A DNA stretch of 64,000 bases from Bacteroidales bacterium (GTDB lineage: Bacteria; Bacteroidota; Bacteroidia; Bacteroidales; F082), in the NCBI GenBank assembly GCA_015493525.1, contig WGCY01000030.1:1-64000 (forward strand), written 5' to 3'. Shown here in pieces: positions 14,199 through 19,851 of the stretch. The number at the start of each line of letters is the position of its first letter. Position 1 is the stretch's first letter. The translations under genes were made by a program, and so were the position numbers. The notes below the pieces were generated by a model. That model was not told the origin of the DNA and did not search any database. It was given only the letters and a program-made list of their open reading frames with translations.

Positions 14199-16055
14199 AT
14201 GAAAACAAAAACTCTACTGTTGGCCTTTTTGCTTACGCTGGGAAGTAGTACTTTTTCCTATGCACAAAAAATCAATGTAAAACGTGTGGACCCGCCTTCG
14301 TGGTGGACAGGTATGCACGACCATAACCTTCAGCTTTTGGTTTACGGCCCGCGTATTTCGGAAACCCATCCGGTGATTGATTATCCGGGGGTACAGCTGG
14401 AGCAAACCATCCATGTAAAAAGCCCGGACTACCTCTTTTTGGATTTGATTATTTCACCCGGAGCAAAACCGGGAACCATGGCCATCCATTTCAAAAAAGG
14501 AAAGAAAGATATTGTAAAATATGCCTACACACTCAACAAAAGAGAAAAGGGCCCCAAATTGCATCAGGGTTTTGACAATTCGGATGTTATCTATCTGCTT
14601 ATGCCCGACCGCTTTGCCAATGGCGACACCACCAACGACAACATGCCCGGTATGCTGGAAAAAGCCGACCGCAGCAATCCCAACGGACGGCACGGCGGCG
14701 ACATCAAAGGCATTGAAGAACATTTGGATTATTTAAAAGATCTGGGCATTACCACTATTTGGAGCACGCCACTCATGGAGGACAACATGCCGGCTTATTC
14801 TTACCATGGTTACGCCCAGACAGATTACTACAAGGTAGATCCGCGTTTCGGCACCAACCGTAATTACCGGAACATGGTGCGGGAAGCCCACAAAAAAGGG
14901 CTGAAAGTCATTCAGGACATGGTTTTTAACCATTGTGGCACCAATTATTTCTGGAAAAATGACCTGCCCACTCCCGACTGGTATAACCCATGGCCGAAAT
15001 TCACCCGTTCCAACTACCACGGTGGTGTGGTTTCCGACCCGCACGCCTCAAAATACGATTATCACCACATGGTAGCCGGCTGGTTCGACAGCAGTATGGC
15101 CGACCTGGACCAGGACAATCCTTTGGTAGCCAACTACCTGATTCAAAACAGTATTTGGTGGATTGAGTACGCCGGGTTGGATGGTATACGTCAGGACACT
15201 TATCCTTATCCGTATAAAGACTTTATGGCGAAATGGATGCAGCGTATCCTTCTGGAATATCCGCATTTTAATGTAGTGGGCGAAACATGGTTTTCGTATC
15301 CGGCAACGGTAGCCTACTGGCTCGAAAACGACCGCAACAAAGACGGATACCATTCCCATCTGACCAATGTTTTTGACTTTCCGCTAATGATGGCCATCAA
15401 CAAGGCATTTAACGAGAAACCGGGCTGGGATACGGGGCTTGCACGTCTTTACGAAGTTATTTCGCAGGACTTTGTGTACAGCGACCCTATGAAACTGGGG
15501 ATTTTTGCCGGCAACCACGACAGCAACCGCATCTTTTCCTCTTTGCACGAAGACCTGAAAGCCTGGAAAATGGCCATGGCTTTCCTGATGACCACCCGCG
15601 GGATTCCCGAAATTTATTATGGGGATGAAATCGTTATGACCGGAGAAAAATCCAAAGGCGACGGCAACCTGCGTAAAGACTTTCCCGGTGGCTGGCCCGG
15701 CGATAAACTGGATGCTTTTACGCAGCAAGGCAGAACGCCTGAACAAAATGAAGCTTTCAATTACATGCACAGGCTGCTAAACTGGCGCAAAACCAACAAA
15801 GCCGTGCAGTTTGGCACACTAACGCATTACATTGTCGAAAACGGTGTGTATGTCTATTTCCGCTCTTACAAAGGACAAAAGGTAATGGTCCTGCTGAACA
15901 ACAACGAAAAACCGGTTACCGTTGACCTCAGCCGTTTTGCGGAAGATTTAAACGGTTTTACCAAAGGCCGGAACGTGATAAAAGGCAATACTATCGTTTT
16001 AGGAAAAGAGATGGAACTGCCGGGGAAATCGGCGGAGATACTGGAACTGGAATAA
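14199..16055 (+). CDS. susA: SusA-like neopullulanase / cyclomaltodextrinase (GH13)
   Basis: 618 residues, essentially the length of Bacteroides SusA. Signal peptide residues 1-22 (ending SYAQ), then an N-terminal beta domain (INVKRVDPPSWWTGMHDHNLQLLVYG) typical of cyclomaltodextrinase N, the GH13 barrel and a C-terminal beta domain (VYVYFRSYKGQKVMVLLNNNE). Catalytic residues: Asp333 in GIRQDTYPY, Glu362 in VVGETWF, Asp441 in GNHDSNRI. The expected activity is cleavage of maltodextrins or pullulan in the periplasm after import. Together with the SLC45-type transporter at 21956 and the cytoplasmic GH13 enzyme it forms an incomplete maltodextrin pathway; there is no SusC/D next to it. Confidence 0.9.
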   Translation: MKTKTLLLAFLLTLGSSTFSYAQKINVKRVDPPSWWTGMHDHNLQLLVYGPRISETHPVIDYPGVQLEQTIHVKSPDYLFLDLIISPGAKPGTMAIHFKKGKKDIVKYAYTLNKREKGPKLHQGFDNSDVIYLLMPDRFANGDTTNDNMPGMLEKADRSNPNGRHGGDIKGIEEHLDYLKDLGITTIWSTPLMEDNMPAYSYHGYAQTDYYKVDPRFGTNRNYRNMVREAHKKGLKVIQDMVFNHCGTNYFWKNDLPTPDWYNPWPKFTRSNYHGGVVSDPHASKYDYHHMVAGWFDSSMADLDQDNPLVANYLIQNSIWWIEYAGLDGIRQDTYPYPYKDFMAKWMQRILLEYPHFNVVGETWFSYPATVAYWLENDRNKDGYHSHLTNVFDFPLMMAINKAFNEKPGWDTGLARLYEVISQDFVYSDPMKLGIFAGNHDSNRIFSSLHEDLKAWKMAMAFLMTTRGIPEIYYGDEIVMTGEKSKGDGNLRKDFPGGWPGDKLDAFTQQGRTPEQNEAFNYMHRLLNWRKTNKAVQFGTLTHYIVENGVYVYFRSYKGQKVMVLLNNNEKPVTVDLSRFAEDLNGFTKGRNVIKGNTIVLGKEMELPGKSAEILELE

Positions 16056-16065
16056 GGGATTGCAC

Positions 16066-16245
16066 GCAAAGACGCGAAAACGCGGAAAAGTTGCACGCAA
16101 AGATGCGGAGACGCAAAGACATTCTCGCAAAGACGCGAAAACGCTAAGAAATTGAGACGCAAAAAAGATTCTCGCAAAGGCGCAAAAACGCTAAGAGATT
16201 AAGACGCAACAGATTGCTCGCAAAGGCGCGGAGGCGCAAAGAGTG
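16066..16245 (+). repeat. Left repeat array next to the GxxExxY gene
   Basis: About five degenerate units built on ctCGCAAAGACGCGAAAACG with spacers such as CTAAGA and TTGAGACGCAA, all in one orientation. A 55-bp block at 16121-16175 is repeated at 16756-16810 with one mismatch. The frame is not coding: it starts just after the SusA-like stop and ends 25 bases before the GxxExxY ATG. Confidence 0.85.
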
Positions 16246-16269
16246 TTATTAATAAACGGTTAAAAACTT

Positions 16270-16653
16270 ATGGATATGACGGAGAATGAATTATCAAAAA
16301 TCATTGTCAATACGGCTTATCAAATTCATGTTGGGCTTGGGGCCGGGTTGTTTGAATCGGTTTACGAGGAAGTGCTTTATTACGAACTCACTGAAATGGG
16401 GTTGTCAGTTACACGCCAACAGGTTATCCCTGTGATTTGGAAAGAGATAGAAATGGAACAGGGGTTTCGAGCGGATTTAATTGTGGAAAATAAAGTCCTG
16501 ATAGAAATAAAGTCAGTCGCTGCCCTTGCCCCCGTTCACCACAAGCAGGTTTTGACCTATTTGAAGCTTACTGGTCTCAAACTCGGACTTTTGATTAATT
16601 TCAACGAAACTTACATTAAAAATGGTATCACCAGAATTGTAAACAACCTGTAA
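16270..16653 (+). CDS. GxxExxY protein (PD-(D/E)XK-like)
   Basis: 127 residues. The naming motif G-L-F-E-S-V-Y is at residues 27-33, inside IHVGLGAGLFESVYEEVL. A nuclease-like core follows: RADLIVENKVLIEIKSV (about residues 71-87), where Asp and the E-I-K pair fit the D...E-x-K arrangement of the PD-(D/E)XK fold (PDDEXK_3, PF13366). The end, GLLINFNETYIKNGITRIVNNL in outline, is the usual C-terminus of the family. The whole domain is intact. The gene lies between two arrays of closely related repeats. The biochemical role of this widespread family is, to my knowledge, not established; nuclease activity is inference from the fold. Confidence 0.9.
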   Translation: MDMTENELSKIIVNTAYQIHVGLGAGLFESVYEEVLYYELTEMGLSVTRQQVIPVIWKEIEMEQGFRADLIVENKVLIEIKSVAALAPVHHKQVLTYLKLTGLKLGLLINFNETYIKNGITRIVNNL

Positions 16654-16654
16654 C

Positions 16655-16830
16655 ACGCAAAAGTCGCGCGCAAAGACGCAGAAACGCAAAGGCTCTTCGA
16701 TACAGAAAAATTCTCGCTAAGATGCTAAGACGCTAAGACTTTAAGACGCGAAAAGATTCTCGCAAAGACGCGAAAACGCTAAGAAGTTGAGACGCAAAAA
16801 AGATTCTCGCTAAGACGCAAAGATTAAAGG
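16655..16830 (+). repeat. Right repeat array, same orientation as the left array
   Basis: Units based on CGCAAAGACGC / CGCTAAGACGC. It contains 16756-16810, which matches 16121-16175 at 54 of 55 positions, so the GxxExxY gene sits inside a pair of near-identical 55-bp direct repeats about 580 bp apart. Confidence 0.85.
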
Positions 16831-16904
16831 AAGGAATCTTTCAAAAAACAAGGCAATATCCACAAAAAACCTGCCCCCCTGCAAACGCACCCTCCCCAAA
16901 AAAT

Positions 16905-17012
16905 CTCTTTGCGTCCTTGCGCCTTTGTGGGCAAACAAACTCTTTGCGCCTCTGCGTCTTTGCGGGCAAAATCACTTCGCGCCTTTGCGTGAACAAAAAT
17001 CTTTGCGTCTTT
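16905..17012 (-). repeat. Inverted repeat array ending at the next promoter
   Basis: The same unit in the opposite orientation (CTTTGCGTCTTTGCG, CTTTGCGCCTCTGCG and variants, about five copies). It ends a few bases before the -7 element of the metallopeptidase gene. RNA reading through 16066-17012 could pair left and right arrays. Confidence 0.8.
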
Positions 17013-17016
17013 TTAT

Positions 17017-17024
17017 TATTTTTG
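17017..17024 (+). promoter_or_regulatory. -7 element TATTTTTG four bases before an ATG
   Basis: TAnnTTTG match with only GCTT between it and the ATG at 17029, which implies a leaderless or nearly leaderless transcript if this box is used. Confidence 0.45.
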
Positions 17025-17028
17025 GCTT

Positions 17029-19851
17029 ATGAAAAAACAGTGTCTCCTTCCCTTTATCTTCTTCCTGGCTCTCTTTTTATTTTCAACACAAGCCGAAGCA
17101 CAGTACTACCTTACCGGACAAGACCCGGCATCCGTTAAGTGGCGGCAAATCAAGACGAAAGAGTTCCGGCTGGTGTTTCCAGAAGGCTATGAGAAAATCG
17201 CCAACTACTATATAAACCTGCTGCAGCTTTCCGCCCCATCCATCAACACGCCGTATCATGCACGCCTGCGAAGGCTGGACATTGTGCTGCACAACCAATC
17301 CACCACCTCCAACGCCATGGTCTCCCCGGTCCCTTTCCATGCCGATTTCTTCGAAATGCCTTCACAAAACATGTATGCACAAAACTGGCAAAAGCAACTC
17401 ACCCTGCACGAATTCCGGCATACGGTTCAAATGGACAAAATGCGACAAGGCTTCGGAAACTTCATGTACTATCTGCTGGGTGAGCAGGGAACAGCAGCCA
17501 TATTCGGGCTTTATCTTCCACAATGGTTTATTGAGGGGGATGCCGTGTGGAGCGAAACAGTACACAGCCACAGCGGACGGGGACGACTGCCGGATTTTGT
17601 CTATCCACTAAAAGCACAAGTACTTGATAAACAGATTTACGGGTACGACAAGGCCCAGTTTGGCTCCTATCGCGATTTTGTCCCCGACCACTACACCCTT
17701 GGCTACCAGCTTGTTTCGGAAGGAATTAAAAACTACGGCACCGGACTTTGGAACGATGTATTGAACCAGGTTGCCCGAAAAAGTTATACCTTCGTCCCAT
17801 TTACCCACCGGCTGAAGAAAAATACCGGAACCAAAAAGGTAAAATATTATCAGGCCACCATGAAAGAGCTGAGGGGCCAATGGCAGGGACAGGCAAAGCC
17901 ACCGGAAAACCAGAATATTCCTACGGCCCCCACCCGCTTTTATACCAGCTATCTCTTCCCACAAATACTTTCTGATGGGCACATCATCGCCGAGCAGACC
18001 TCCATCGACGACATCAACCGGTTTGTGAAAATCGGCCCGGACGGGAAGATTACACGACTGTTTACGCCCGGTTTCGATTTCAAAGAGTCGCTTTCTGCCA
18101 ACGACAGCCTGCTTTGCTGGAACGAAAAGACTTTTGACCCACGCTGGACAAACCGCGACTATTCGGTCATAAAAATCTACAATTACAAAACCCGAAAACT
18201 GAGACAGCTCACACGCCGAAGCCGCTATTTTGCCCCGGCACTGTCGCCCGATGGCAAAACCATAATAGCCGTCAGGGTCGATATGCAGCAAAACCATTAT
18301 CTTGACTTCCTGGATGTGGCCACCGGCAAAAAGTTAAAGGAGTTCCACACTCCAAATAATCTCTTTTTCATGACACCCCACTGGTCGGCTGACGGGAAAA
18401 ATATTGTGGCCACCGTCCTCGGCGACAAAGGCAAATCCATCCTGCTGCTCAGTGCGAAAACCATGAAATACAGGCTGCTGCTCCCCTTTTCTTTTACGGA
18501 AATAAAATGGCCGGTGATGCACGGGAACAACGTTGTTTACACCGGCACTTACGAAGGCAAAGATAACCTGTATGCCATTGATGTGGCCACGGGCAAAACC
18601 TACCGTGTTCTCGACAGCCGTTTTGGTGCTACGGCACCCACTTTCGCCCCGGCAGGCAACAAGCTTTATTTCAGCAACTACACTGCCGATGGTAATAAAA
18701 CAGCTTCCGTACCTTTCGTGCCGGCTGACCTGAAATCTTTTGATGTTACCACAGCACATCACGAATATCTTGTGGACAAACTGCGGGGGAAGAATACTTT
18801 TAACCTGGATGACTCCATTGTTCCGGACAAAAAATATCCCGAAAAAAAATACAGCCGGCTGGGGCATCTTTTCAACCCTCACTCCTGGGCACCCCTGTCT
18901 CTCGATTTGAACAGCTATACCGTGAAACCGGGTGTTATGCTCCTGTCGCAAAACGTTTTGAGCACGGCCGTTACCATGCTTGGGTGGTCTTACGACCTGA
19001 ATGAGCGTACCGGGAAGTTTAATTTCGGCATGCGCTATCTCGGATGGTATCCGGTGATAGGCATCAATGTAACGTATGGTAACCGTAGAATAAATATGGC
19101 CGACAACAGCGGCGTTTACCACGAACTTTTCTGGCACGAAACGAACCTTTCCCTTAACGTCAGTGTGCCTTTGAACTTTACCCACAGCAAATGGATAAAC
19201 GGGTTACAGCCTTATATCGGCTTTTCCGAAAAGTTTCTGAAAATGGGTTCCGGCTATCCCTACGAATTTAAAGAAGACCGTGTAATGACGATGCACTATC
19301 AATTTTATGCCTACAACCAGCTCAAACGGTCACCCAAAGATTTGTATCCCAAATGGGGACAGGATATCCGTGTGGATTATGAAAACACACCGATTTCCGA
19401 CGACCCCGGTAACCAGTTTGCGGTGCAGGGCCATCTTTATTTCCCGGGGTTTGTCCGCCATCAAAGTGTAGTACTCTATGCCGGATACGACAGACAACAA
19501 CGGGGCAGCTATTCGTTTAGTACAAGGATAAACATTCCCCGGGGCTATAGCGACATTTACGAAGATATGATGACGGTTTTCAAAGCCGATTATGCTTTTC
19601 CCATCGCCTATCCCGACATGGACTGGCAGGGAGTCATGTACCTGAAGCGTATATACGGACATGCCTTTTACGATTTCCTGAGGGGCGAAACCTCCGGCGT
19701 TGTTACCGATTATACCAGCACCGGCCTGGAACTGTACACCGACTGGAACTTTCTGAGTTTCTTCCCCAATGTTTCTGTCGGATTACGCTGGTCATATGCC
19801 ATCAACCGCGACACACAGACTTTTGATTTTCTTTTCGGAATAAATTTTTAA
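17029..19851 (+). CDS. Exported metallopeptidase-like / PD40 propeller / outer-membrane barrel protein
   Basis: 940 residues. Signal peptide 1-24 (ending AEAQ). Residues about 30-190 look like a gluzincin peptidase domain: HEFRH at 127-131 (HExxH) and, 38 residues on, the candidate third ligand Glu169 in LPQWFIEGDAVW. Residues about 290-600 contain TolB/PD40-type repeats (FAPALSPDGKTIIAV, FMTPHWSADGKNIVA, TAPTFAPAGNKLYFSNY). The last 300 residues alternate aromatic/polar beta strands and end in FDFLFGINF with a terminal Phe, the mark of an outer-membrane barrel. The whole would be an outer-membrane protease with periplasmic or surface propeller. No known family member name can be given with certainty. 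Confidence 0.75.
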   Translation: MKKQCLLPFIFFLALFLFSTQAEAQYYLTGQDPASVKWRQIKTKEFRLVFPEGYEKIANYYINLLQLSAPSINTPYHARLRRLDIVLHNQSTTSNAMVSPVPFHADFFEMPSQNMYAQNWQKQLTLHEFRHTVQMDKMRQGFGNFMYYLLGEQGTAAIFGLYLPQWFIEGDAVWSETVHSHSGRGRLPDFVYPLKAQVLDKQIYGYDKAQFGSYRDFVPDHYTLGYQLVSEGIKNYGTGLWNDVLNQVARKSYTFVPFTHRLKKNTGTKKVKYYQATMKELRGQWQGQAKPPENQNIPTAPTRFYTSYLFPQILSDGHIIAEQTSIDDINRFVKIGPDGKITRLFTPGFDFKESLSANDSLLCWNEKTFDPRWTNRDYSVIKIYNYKTRKLRQLTRRSRYFAPALSPDGKTIIAVRVDMQQNHYLDFLDVATGKKLKEFHTPNNLFFMTPHWSADGKNIVATVLGDKGKSILLLSAKTMKYRLLLPFSFTEIKWPVMHGNNVVYTGTYEGKDNLYAIDVATGKTYRVLDSRFGATAPTFAPAGNKLYFSNYTADGNKTASVPFVPADLKSFDVTTAHHEYLVDKLRGKNTFNLDDSIVPDKKYPEKKYSRLGHLFNPHSWAPLSLDLNSYTVKPGVMLLSQNVLSTAVTMLGWSYDLNERTGKFNFGMRYLGWYPVIGINVTYGNRRINMADNSGVYHELFWHETNLSLNVSVPLNFTHSKWINGLQPYIGFSEKFLKMGSGYPYEFKEDRVMTMHYQFYAYNQLKRSPKDLYPKWGQDIRVDYENTPISDDPGNQFAVQGHLYFPGFVRHQSVVLYAGYDRQQRGSYSFSTRINIPRGYSDIYEDMMTVFKADYAFPIAYPDMDWQGVMYLKRIYGHAFYDFLRGETSGVVTDYTSTGLELYTDWNFLSFFPNVSVGLRWSYAINRDTQTFDFLFGINF

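Follow-up and report, generated by a model that had tools for sequence, protein, structure and literature searches.

Inverted heptamer arrays enclose a GxxExxY nuclease-family gene in what is probably a compact palindrome-associated DNA element

The GxxExxY gene found in the window, i.e., the 64,000-nucleotide stretch of DNA that was analysed, probably forms together with its flanking heptamer arrays a compact nuclease-palindrome element, which resembles the REPIN-RAYT systems and uses an unrelated enzyme. This reading is based on the inward orientation of the flanks, the matching of both arms, the association of end motifs with the gene, the palindromic gene-less derivatives (minis) and the different states of orthologous sites, and it is also based on the low pN/pS values with kept repeat units, the heptamers tracking the protein tree, the invariant catalytic residues and the structural matches. 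Gene-less palindromes occurring mainly in gene-carrying genomes of the phylum sampled suggest a very small DNA element that is mobile or maintains itself. That the locus might be selfish or self-maintaining, with the repeats as recognition sites, was already proposed in a first-pass annotation of this DNA, and the proposal gains support by association, i.e., from arrays across phyla, gene-less relatives and presence/absence states.

The unit of the arrays is a degenerate heptamer, CRCNRAK, with short spacers (Table 1). On the plus and minus strand it occurs 10 and 0 times to the left of the gene (16056–16269), 0 and 0 times inside the gene, 8 and 0 times just to its right and 0 and 8 times in the third array, confirming the reversed orientation of the latter as described in the first-pass annotation. 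The boxed position of the gene described there is borne out by the profile matches and repeat counts, and the two 55-bp units were found on recomputation to differ in a single position. Tandem arrays were reported at 16065–16153, 16108–16230, 16669–16821 and 16899–16990; by reading, the left units extend to 16242 and the inverted units to 17011. The second array appears to have arisen by internal duplication of the left one. CRCNRAK is 9.8 times as dense in the 973-bp gap as in the remaining window sequence, and the gap is bounded by an alpha-amylase/cyclomaltodextrinase-like gene (14199–16055, stop at 16055; Pfam) and by the gene starting at 17029. Since the arrays occupy the entire gap between the neighbouring genes, the element is taken to extend over about this gap. 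The downstream gene (17029–19851) was previously called a metallopeptidase gene, a name that is not confirmed, Pfam giving only beta-propeller models, of which the WD40-like PD40 is above cut-off. The two neighbouring genes, which were the genes scanned, do not match any cas family. In the window genome (2.85 Mb, 53 contigs, 96.4% complete) the sequence CGCAAAGRCGC occurs ten times, eight of them at the window locus, and a 119-base array query matched below E 1 only the window locus. A scatter of the window repeat type over its genome independent of the gene, which would have spoken against the first-pass annotation, is thus not seen; this lack of dispersed copies counts against the preferred reading.

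Table 1. Features of the GxxExxY locus in the window.
Feature	Position	Strand	Remarks
GxxExxY gene	16270–16653	+	127 aa; profile matches TIGR04256, PF13366 (PDDEXK_3)
Whole element	16056–17028	.	limits inferred from array ends and neighbouring genes
Left array, CGCNAAG-type heptamers pointing to the gene	16065–16242	+	tandem-repeat report and reading
55-bp unit	16121–16175	+	54/55 identical to 16756–16810
Second array, sense of the left array	16669–16821	+	8 units on +
55-bp unit	16756–16810	+	54/55 identical to 16121–16175
Third array, right-hand inverted end of the element	16899–17011	-	8 units on -

The window protein matches TIGR04256 (E 6e-41, 139.4 bits, cut-off 35) and PF13366 (E 2e-39, 135 bits, cut-off 22). 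In a Pfam scan PDDEXK_3 was the sole match above cut-off and no transposase family was matched. The family motif is present as G26-x-x-E29-x-x-Y32. The residues G26, E29, Y32, D69, E79 and K81 are invariant in alignments of 27 and of 76 proteins, and Q93 and Y97 are invariant in the former and conserved to at least 90% in the latter; five of the 80 loci, containing stops or unknown residues, were excluded from the protein alignment. The AlphaFold2 model is confident (pLDDT 94.8, pTM 0.89), and its Foldseek matches include LHK-Exo, Cas4 SSO0001 (probability 0.99), lambda exonuclease, Bax1 and Hjc as well as the fdxN-element excision controlling factor. None of the Foldseek matches reaches E ≤ 0.001, which counts against the preferred reading, and a search for solved relatives by sequence gave none that is credible, the best being an acetyltransferase at E 0.014. 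A role as defence gene was considered and rejected, as PADLOC yields only Cas4, RT-PDDEXK and type IIG models at E 0.014–0.032 and the best PHROGs match, at E 0.0011, is a CRISPR-associated family. Similarly, a phage or a plasmid origin was rejected, the protein matching at E ≤ 1e-5 none of 50,697 phage records and five of 72,556 plasmid records.

The arrangement seen in the window recurs at GxxExxY genes elsewhere. The window genome encodes two further GxxExxY genes, both boxed by arrays of other heptamer variants, i.e., CACNAAG (L001) and CACGAAT (L003), and all its variants fit CRCNRAK. Among the 296 sampled genomes of the same phylum, 152 have the family, with up to 12 copies, and it occurs in other phyla, too. 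Most of the loci listed, from 30 phylum loci and 80 named contigs that were read, show the boxed layout; the named contigs come from several phyla and represent the best 80 of at least 575 matches, of which 74 were usable. At least two inward-pointing units on both sides are present at 49 of these 74 loci vs. two of 337 control genes on the same contigs. The mean number of units per 200 bp is 2.7 upstream in sense and 3.0 downstream in antisense orientation, compared to 0.37–0.40 for the controls, and units of opposite sense at the GxxExxY loci amount to 1.1 per 200 bp on each side. Evaluation of a wider set, comprising 121 loci after removal of 11 out of 132 that were duplicate, short or contained N, gave 90 with inward arrays on both sides. 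The exceptions, which count against the preferred reading, comprise seven loci with outward arrays, three with one sense on both sides, 18 that are one-sided and three with neither, i.e., with fewer than two units on every side, so that GxxExxY genes devoid of flanking arrays, which would have spoken against the first-pass annotation, are rare. One of these three, L089, has CGCAACG-like units lying outside the search pattern. The outward-pointing arrays are those of L061, L083, L122 and L125 (Acidobacteria) plus L113, L026 and L049; the genome of L061 (G358) contains 295 ends of the TCW type, many of which are listed as outward pairs about 62 bp apart.

Moreover, the two flanks of a gene match each other. 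Comparing the upstream flank with the reverse complement of the downstream flank, 61 of 74 loci score above the 95% point of the controls and 20 above the 99% point, and at 42 of 74 loci the own partner ranks within the top 5% of all partners. The best terminal inverted repeats, spacers included, are those of L129 (44/44), L030 (41/42), L216 (37/37) and L220 (33/33), with a median best flank-to-flank alignment of 25 columns (127 loci). Within a locus the variable heptamer positions are uniform, reaching 0.89 for position 2 (null 0.67) and 0.86 for position 5 (null 0.69). Furthermore, the gene is found at unrelated sites with homology extending over about the element only (L089/L114, 402 bp; L124/L225, 420 bp; both 74%). 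We regard it as almost certain that gene and arrays form one unit.

Next to the complete elements, minis were found, i.e., gene-less palindromes ending in heptamer arrays like those at GxxExxY genes. The minis of genome G100 consist of paired inverted ends with 41–71 bp between the outer edges, and a full element of the same genome spans 430 bp in total, composed of two 19-bp ends and the reading frame between them. Exact convergent end pairs of 53–134 bp are present in nine of 20 fetched regions (G292, G249, G206, G170); in several others of the 20 the second arm deviates from the pattern. The end motif AACCRCNRAGN{1,3}CRCNRAG occurs on average 8.83 times in the 152 GxxExxY-positive genomes and 0.33 times in the 144 negative ones, the latter being the chance level as the reversed pattern gives 0.32 per negative genome. 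Three or more of these motifs are present in 87 of 152 positive vs. three of 144 negative genomes. Restricted to families with both states, the numbers are 64 of 115 and three of 116, which was reached by none of 20,000 within-family permutations. This association refers to one end motif, the AACC type, in one phylum, and 65 of the 152 positive genomes have fewer than three ends of the tested type, counting against the preferred reading, as do the three negative genomes G072, G107 and G137 carrying 5, 7 and 4 motifs, for which recent gene loss or an overlooked gene is possible. In the window genome all AACC ends listed (13 of 35) start with CACNAAG, resembling L001 and differing from the window copy. 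For other phyla, a TCW-type end motif, counted in gene-carrying genomes only, is present in 14 of 16 genomes and with at least five copies in 12, reaching up to 295 per genome with 0–1 for the reversed pattern. Dispersed repeats thus do occur outside the window genome, yet mainly in genomes carrying the gene. It is very likely that the minis are partners of the GxxExxY element.

These counts bear on three other explanations. Short degenerate repeats arise readily, and the arrays could be chance or generic tandem-repeat noise beside an ordinary gene; in view of the same-contig controls, the reversed-pattern control and the within-family permutation this is very unlikely, with a probability that is practically negligible. 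The palindromes might also owe their spread to replication errors or to an agent other than the nuclease, the gene being a parasite that resembles a homing endonuclease, cuts minis and inserts a copy of itself at their centre. The gene indeed occupies the palindrome centre, and mini and full forms with common ends are found at one site; in the full element of G100, the ends measure 19 bp each out of 430 bp. However, in gene-less genomes the tested end motif does not exceed chance level, suggesting that the gene is needed for the minis and not only the reverse, and homing alone is quite improbable. Finally, the nuclease might use RNA from the arrays as a guide or as a structured partner, in line with the RNA hairpins proposed in the first-pass annotation. 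Five mini sequences (one mini on both strands) fold better than all of their 200 shuffles each. Nevertheless, the arm mismatches on the gene strand do not show a wobble-compatible (G-U) bias (168 vs. 176, 93 loci), no Rfam family is matched at gathering score and the arrays lack CRISPR-like unique spacers by reading, so that the hairpin proposal found no support and a role of array RNA is highly improbable.

The element is present or absent at orthologous sites. One site in Flavobacterium is bordered by a HemN/HemW-like gene (HemN_C) on one side and a cyclase-family gene (PF04199) on the other; the genus code was assigned to Flavobacterium because of an identical 3,351-bp stretch common to L217, which has this code, and the named L124. 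Of 61 genomes searched 56 have the cyclase and 55 were fetched, supplemented by eight named loci. Among the 60 that were parsed, including L150 and L073 that are identical in sequence, 15 are full, 22 have a mini (at least two units on either strand, the gap not exceeding 170 bp), 15 are clean (fewer units) and eight carry other inserts. The flanks of the clean L143 and the full L074 are 89% identical. A target-site duplication was not seen by eye in the element flanks including this pair, with one genome per species compared, which counts against the preferred reading. In L073/L150 the tandem repetition of the left end includes the final bases of the host gene, which resembles copy errors at a palindrome.

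In a second genus, one site carries a mini in G100, G054, G026 and G038, the latter within an unbroken match of 1,240 bases; the mini is absent there in G163, G065 and G069, and G175 has a half-mini. In G163 the right flank is 94% alike and the near-left flank 88% over 54 bases, and the locus contains a local duplication, another mini lying about 750 bp away. Because of this duplication, the 88% left flank and the half-mini in G175 the site does not represent a clean empty site, counting against the preferred reading. At another site (L252–L259), CACAGAG minis are found in G100 and G038 and about three other palindrome families in six relatives, so that by reading all eight related species have some palindrome there, from about four families. 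It looks as though this spot required or favoured a hairpin of some kind, and the other palindromes mean, against the preferred reading, that such a requirement could account for part of what is observed. Taken together, we have good confidence that the element shows insertion polymorphism at orthologous sites.

The gene at the Flavobacterium site shows pN/pS values of 0.06–0.20 at pS 0.59–0.78 (15 pairs, six orthologues), indicating that it is under purifying selection, and in a flank alignment of 12 sequences from this site the units mostly keep their CGC and AAG positions. The gene often keeps one site across species despite near-saturated synonymous change, which counts against the preferred reading; such a long residence is more like that of a resident than of an active transposon. 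This leads to an explanation by a resident nuclease useful for the host, acting in repair or processing of palindromes or hairpins, with units and minis as its binding sites, with minis that persist because intergenic hairpins serve the host in termination or RNA processing and with rare movement not driven by the protein. It is in agreement with the long stay at orthologous sites under purifying selection, with the unit positions kept over near-saturated synonymous distance, with the palindromes at one site in all eight relatives and with the folding of the five mini sequences as RNA, all beating their own shuffles. However, minis are present, absent or replaced between close relatives, the gene is found at unrelated sites with homology confined to about the element, and some genes have perfect terminal inverted repeats, which are not needed for a binding site. 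A resident nuclease of this kind is therefore considered unlikely.

The heptamer type tracks the protein tree, as judged from the number of changes over 122 loci compared to 200 shuffles: position 2 requires 17 changes (shuffles: mean 38.9, minimum 31), position 5 requires 19 (mean 35.2, minimum 26) and position 7 requires five (mean 8.8, minimum 7). The copies within a genome differ at positions 2, 5 and 7, reading AAG, GAG and AAT in the window genome and AGG, GAG, AAG, AGT and GAG in G236. We infer a recognition of the heptamer by the protein from these data; against the preferred reading, a common descent of the gene and its flanks could by itself yield the tree signal.

For the nuclease-palindrome element a mechanism can be proposed, in which the protein, acting as a symmetric complex, would bind the heptamer palindrome or the hairpin that it forms on single-stranded DNA, and the bound nuclease would cut the palindrome. 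Repair or replication of the cut ends would then copy the palindrome, with or without the gene, to new intergenic sites, and the same process would keep both arms alike. The position of the gene at the palindrome centre would correspond to the expected cut point of a symmetric nuclease and to the seat of a homing-type gene. It is somewhat more likely than not that the nuclease drives the dispersal.

Two further gene families show similar flanks. GIY-YIG nuclease genes of genus g57 (L317–L346) are partly flanked by inverted repeats, e.g., L320, L322 and L343, the latter with 28/28 bases, and TIGR02436 genes (L347–L376, e.g., L368, L373 and L359), encoding what we take to be a four-helix-bundle protein, are partly flanked by inverted TTAGTATTGAGTA-like repeats. 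For each family 30 loci were taken, out of 71 and 83 matches, respectively, in the same eight genomes, and TIGR02436 genes are present with 1 to 16 copies in each of them. An inverted-repeat score of the flanks of at least 19 is reached by eight of 30 GIY-YIG loci and five of 30 TIGR02436 loci vs. 0 of 60 control windows in both cases, the counts not being independent as several loci are orthologous copies. The GIY-YIG genes look like a parallel nuclease-palindrome pair. By eye, G163 and G054 have palindromes similar to these TIGR02436 repeats at the G100 site.

It is conceivable, as a tentative extension, that GxxExxY represents a new class of minimal mobile element spanning phyla, in which a single RecB/Cas4-like nuclease of some 130 residues mobilises or copies the heptamer palindrome around it, recognises heptamers in a lineage-specific manner and has non-autonomous palindromes as offspring, maybe as one of several palindrome-paired nucleases competing for intergenic sites. 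The widespread GxxExxY family, for which no function was found in the literature searched, gains a concrete putative substrate and a genomic partner, and the element could account for many short intergenic repeats in environmental bacteria. If true, a partnership of the REPIN-RAYT type has evolved with an unrelated nuclease. The association of GxxExxY genes with heptamers is not described in the accessible parts of PMC8934634, PMC12085832, PMC9756366 and PMC3733652, nor was it found in the accessible portion of the open literature searched; subscription journals and bioRxiv were outside its scope, and it may be in print there.

Compared to known systems, the window arrays differ from CRISPR-Cas in that they were read without unique spacers. 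With the Cas4/RecB-like and lambda-type exonucleases the protein shares the PD-(D/E)XK core, and Q93 and Y97 resemble the QxxxY motif characteristic of these enzymes. However, the protein has 127 aa only and matches the PADLOC Cas4 models just at the E values given above; since it does not contain a cysteine, it lacks the iron-sulfur site, which is a feature of Cas4. Like a free-standing homing endonuclease, the nuclease-family gene is centred in a putative recognition palindrome with empty and occupied sites, whereas an intron, intein or host-gene target was not seen and the site is a dispersed intergenic palindrome. Terminal inverted repeats, an internal gene and gene-less derivatives with common ends are shared with MITEs and their parent insertion sequences, from which the element differs by ends made of degenerate heptamer arrays, by a length of only 430 bp end to end for one full element, by the lack of a transposase-family match and by the absence of a target duplication on inspection by eye. 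The likeness is also seen for REPIN/RAYT (TnpA-REP) systems, in which a gene lies between inverted short repeats and gene-less palindromic pairs are dispersed in the same genomes, comparable to the inverted repeat copies pointing inward on both sides at 90 of the 121 GxxExxY loci. RAYTs are HUH/Y1 transposases, whereas the GxxExxY protein is by Pfam a PD-(D/E)XK family match. REPIN-RAYT repeats are described as REPs of 20–40 bp with a GTAG or CGTC tag (PMC3733652; for REPIN/RAYT systems see also PMC6006769 and PMC8266576), whereas the GxxExxY repeats are heptamers in arrays without such a tag, the element ends by eye consisting of AACC, TCT or TCA plus heptamers. The element would therefore work like a REPIN-RAYT system or a MITE with its parent, but with a RecB/Cas4-like nuclease instead.
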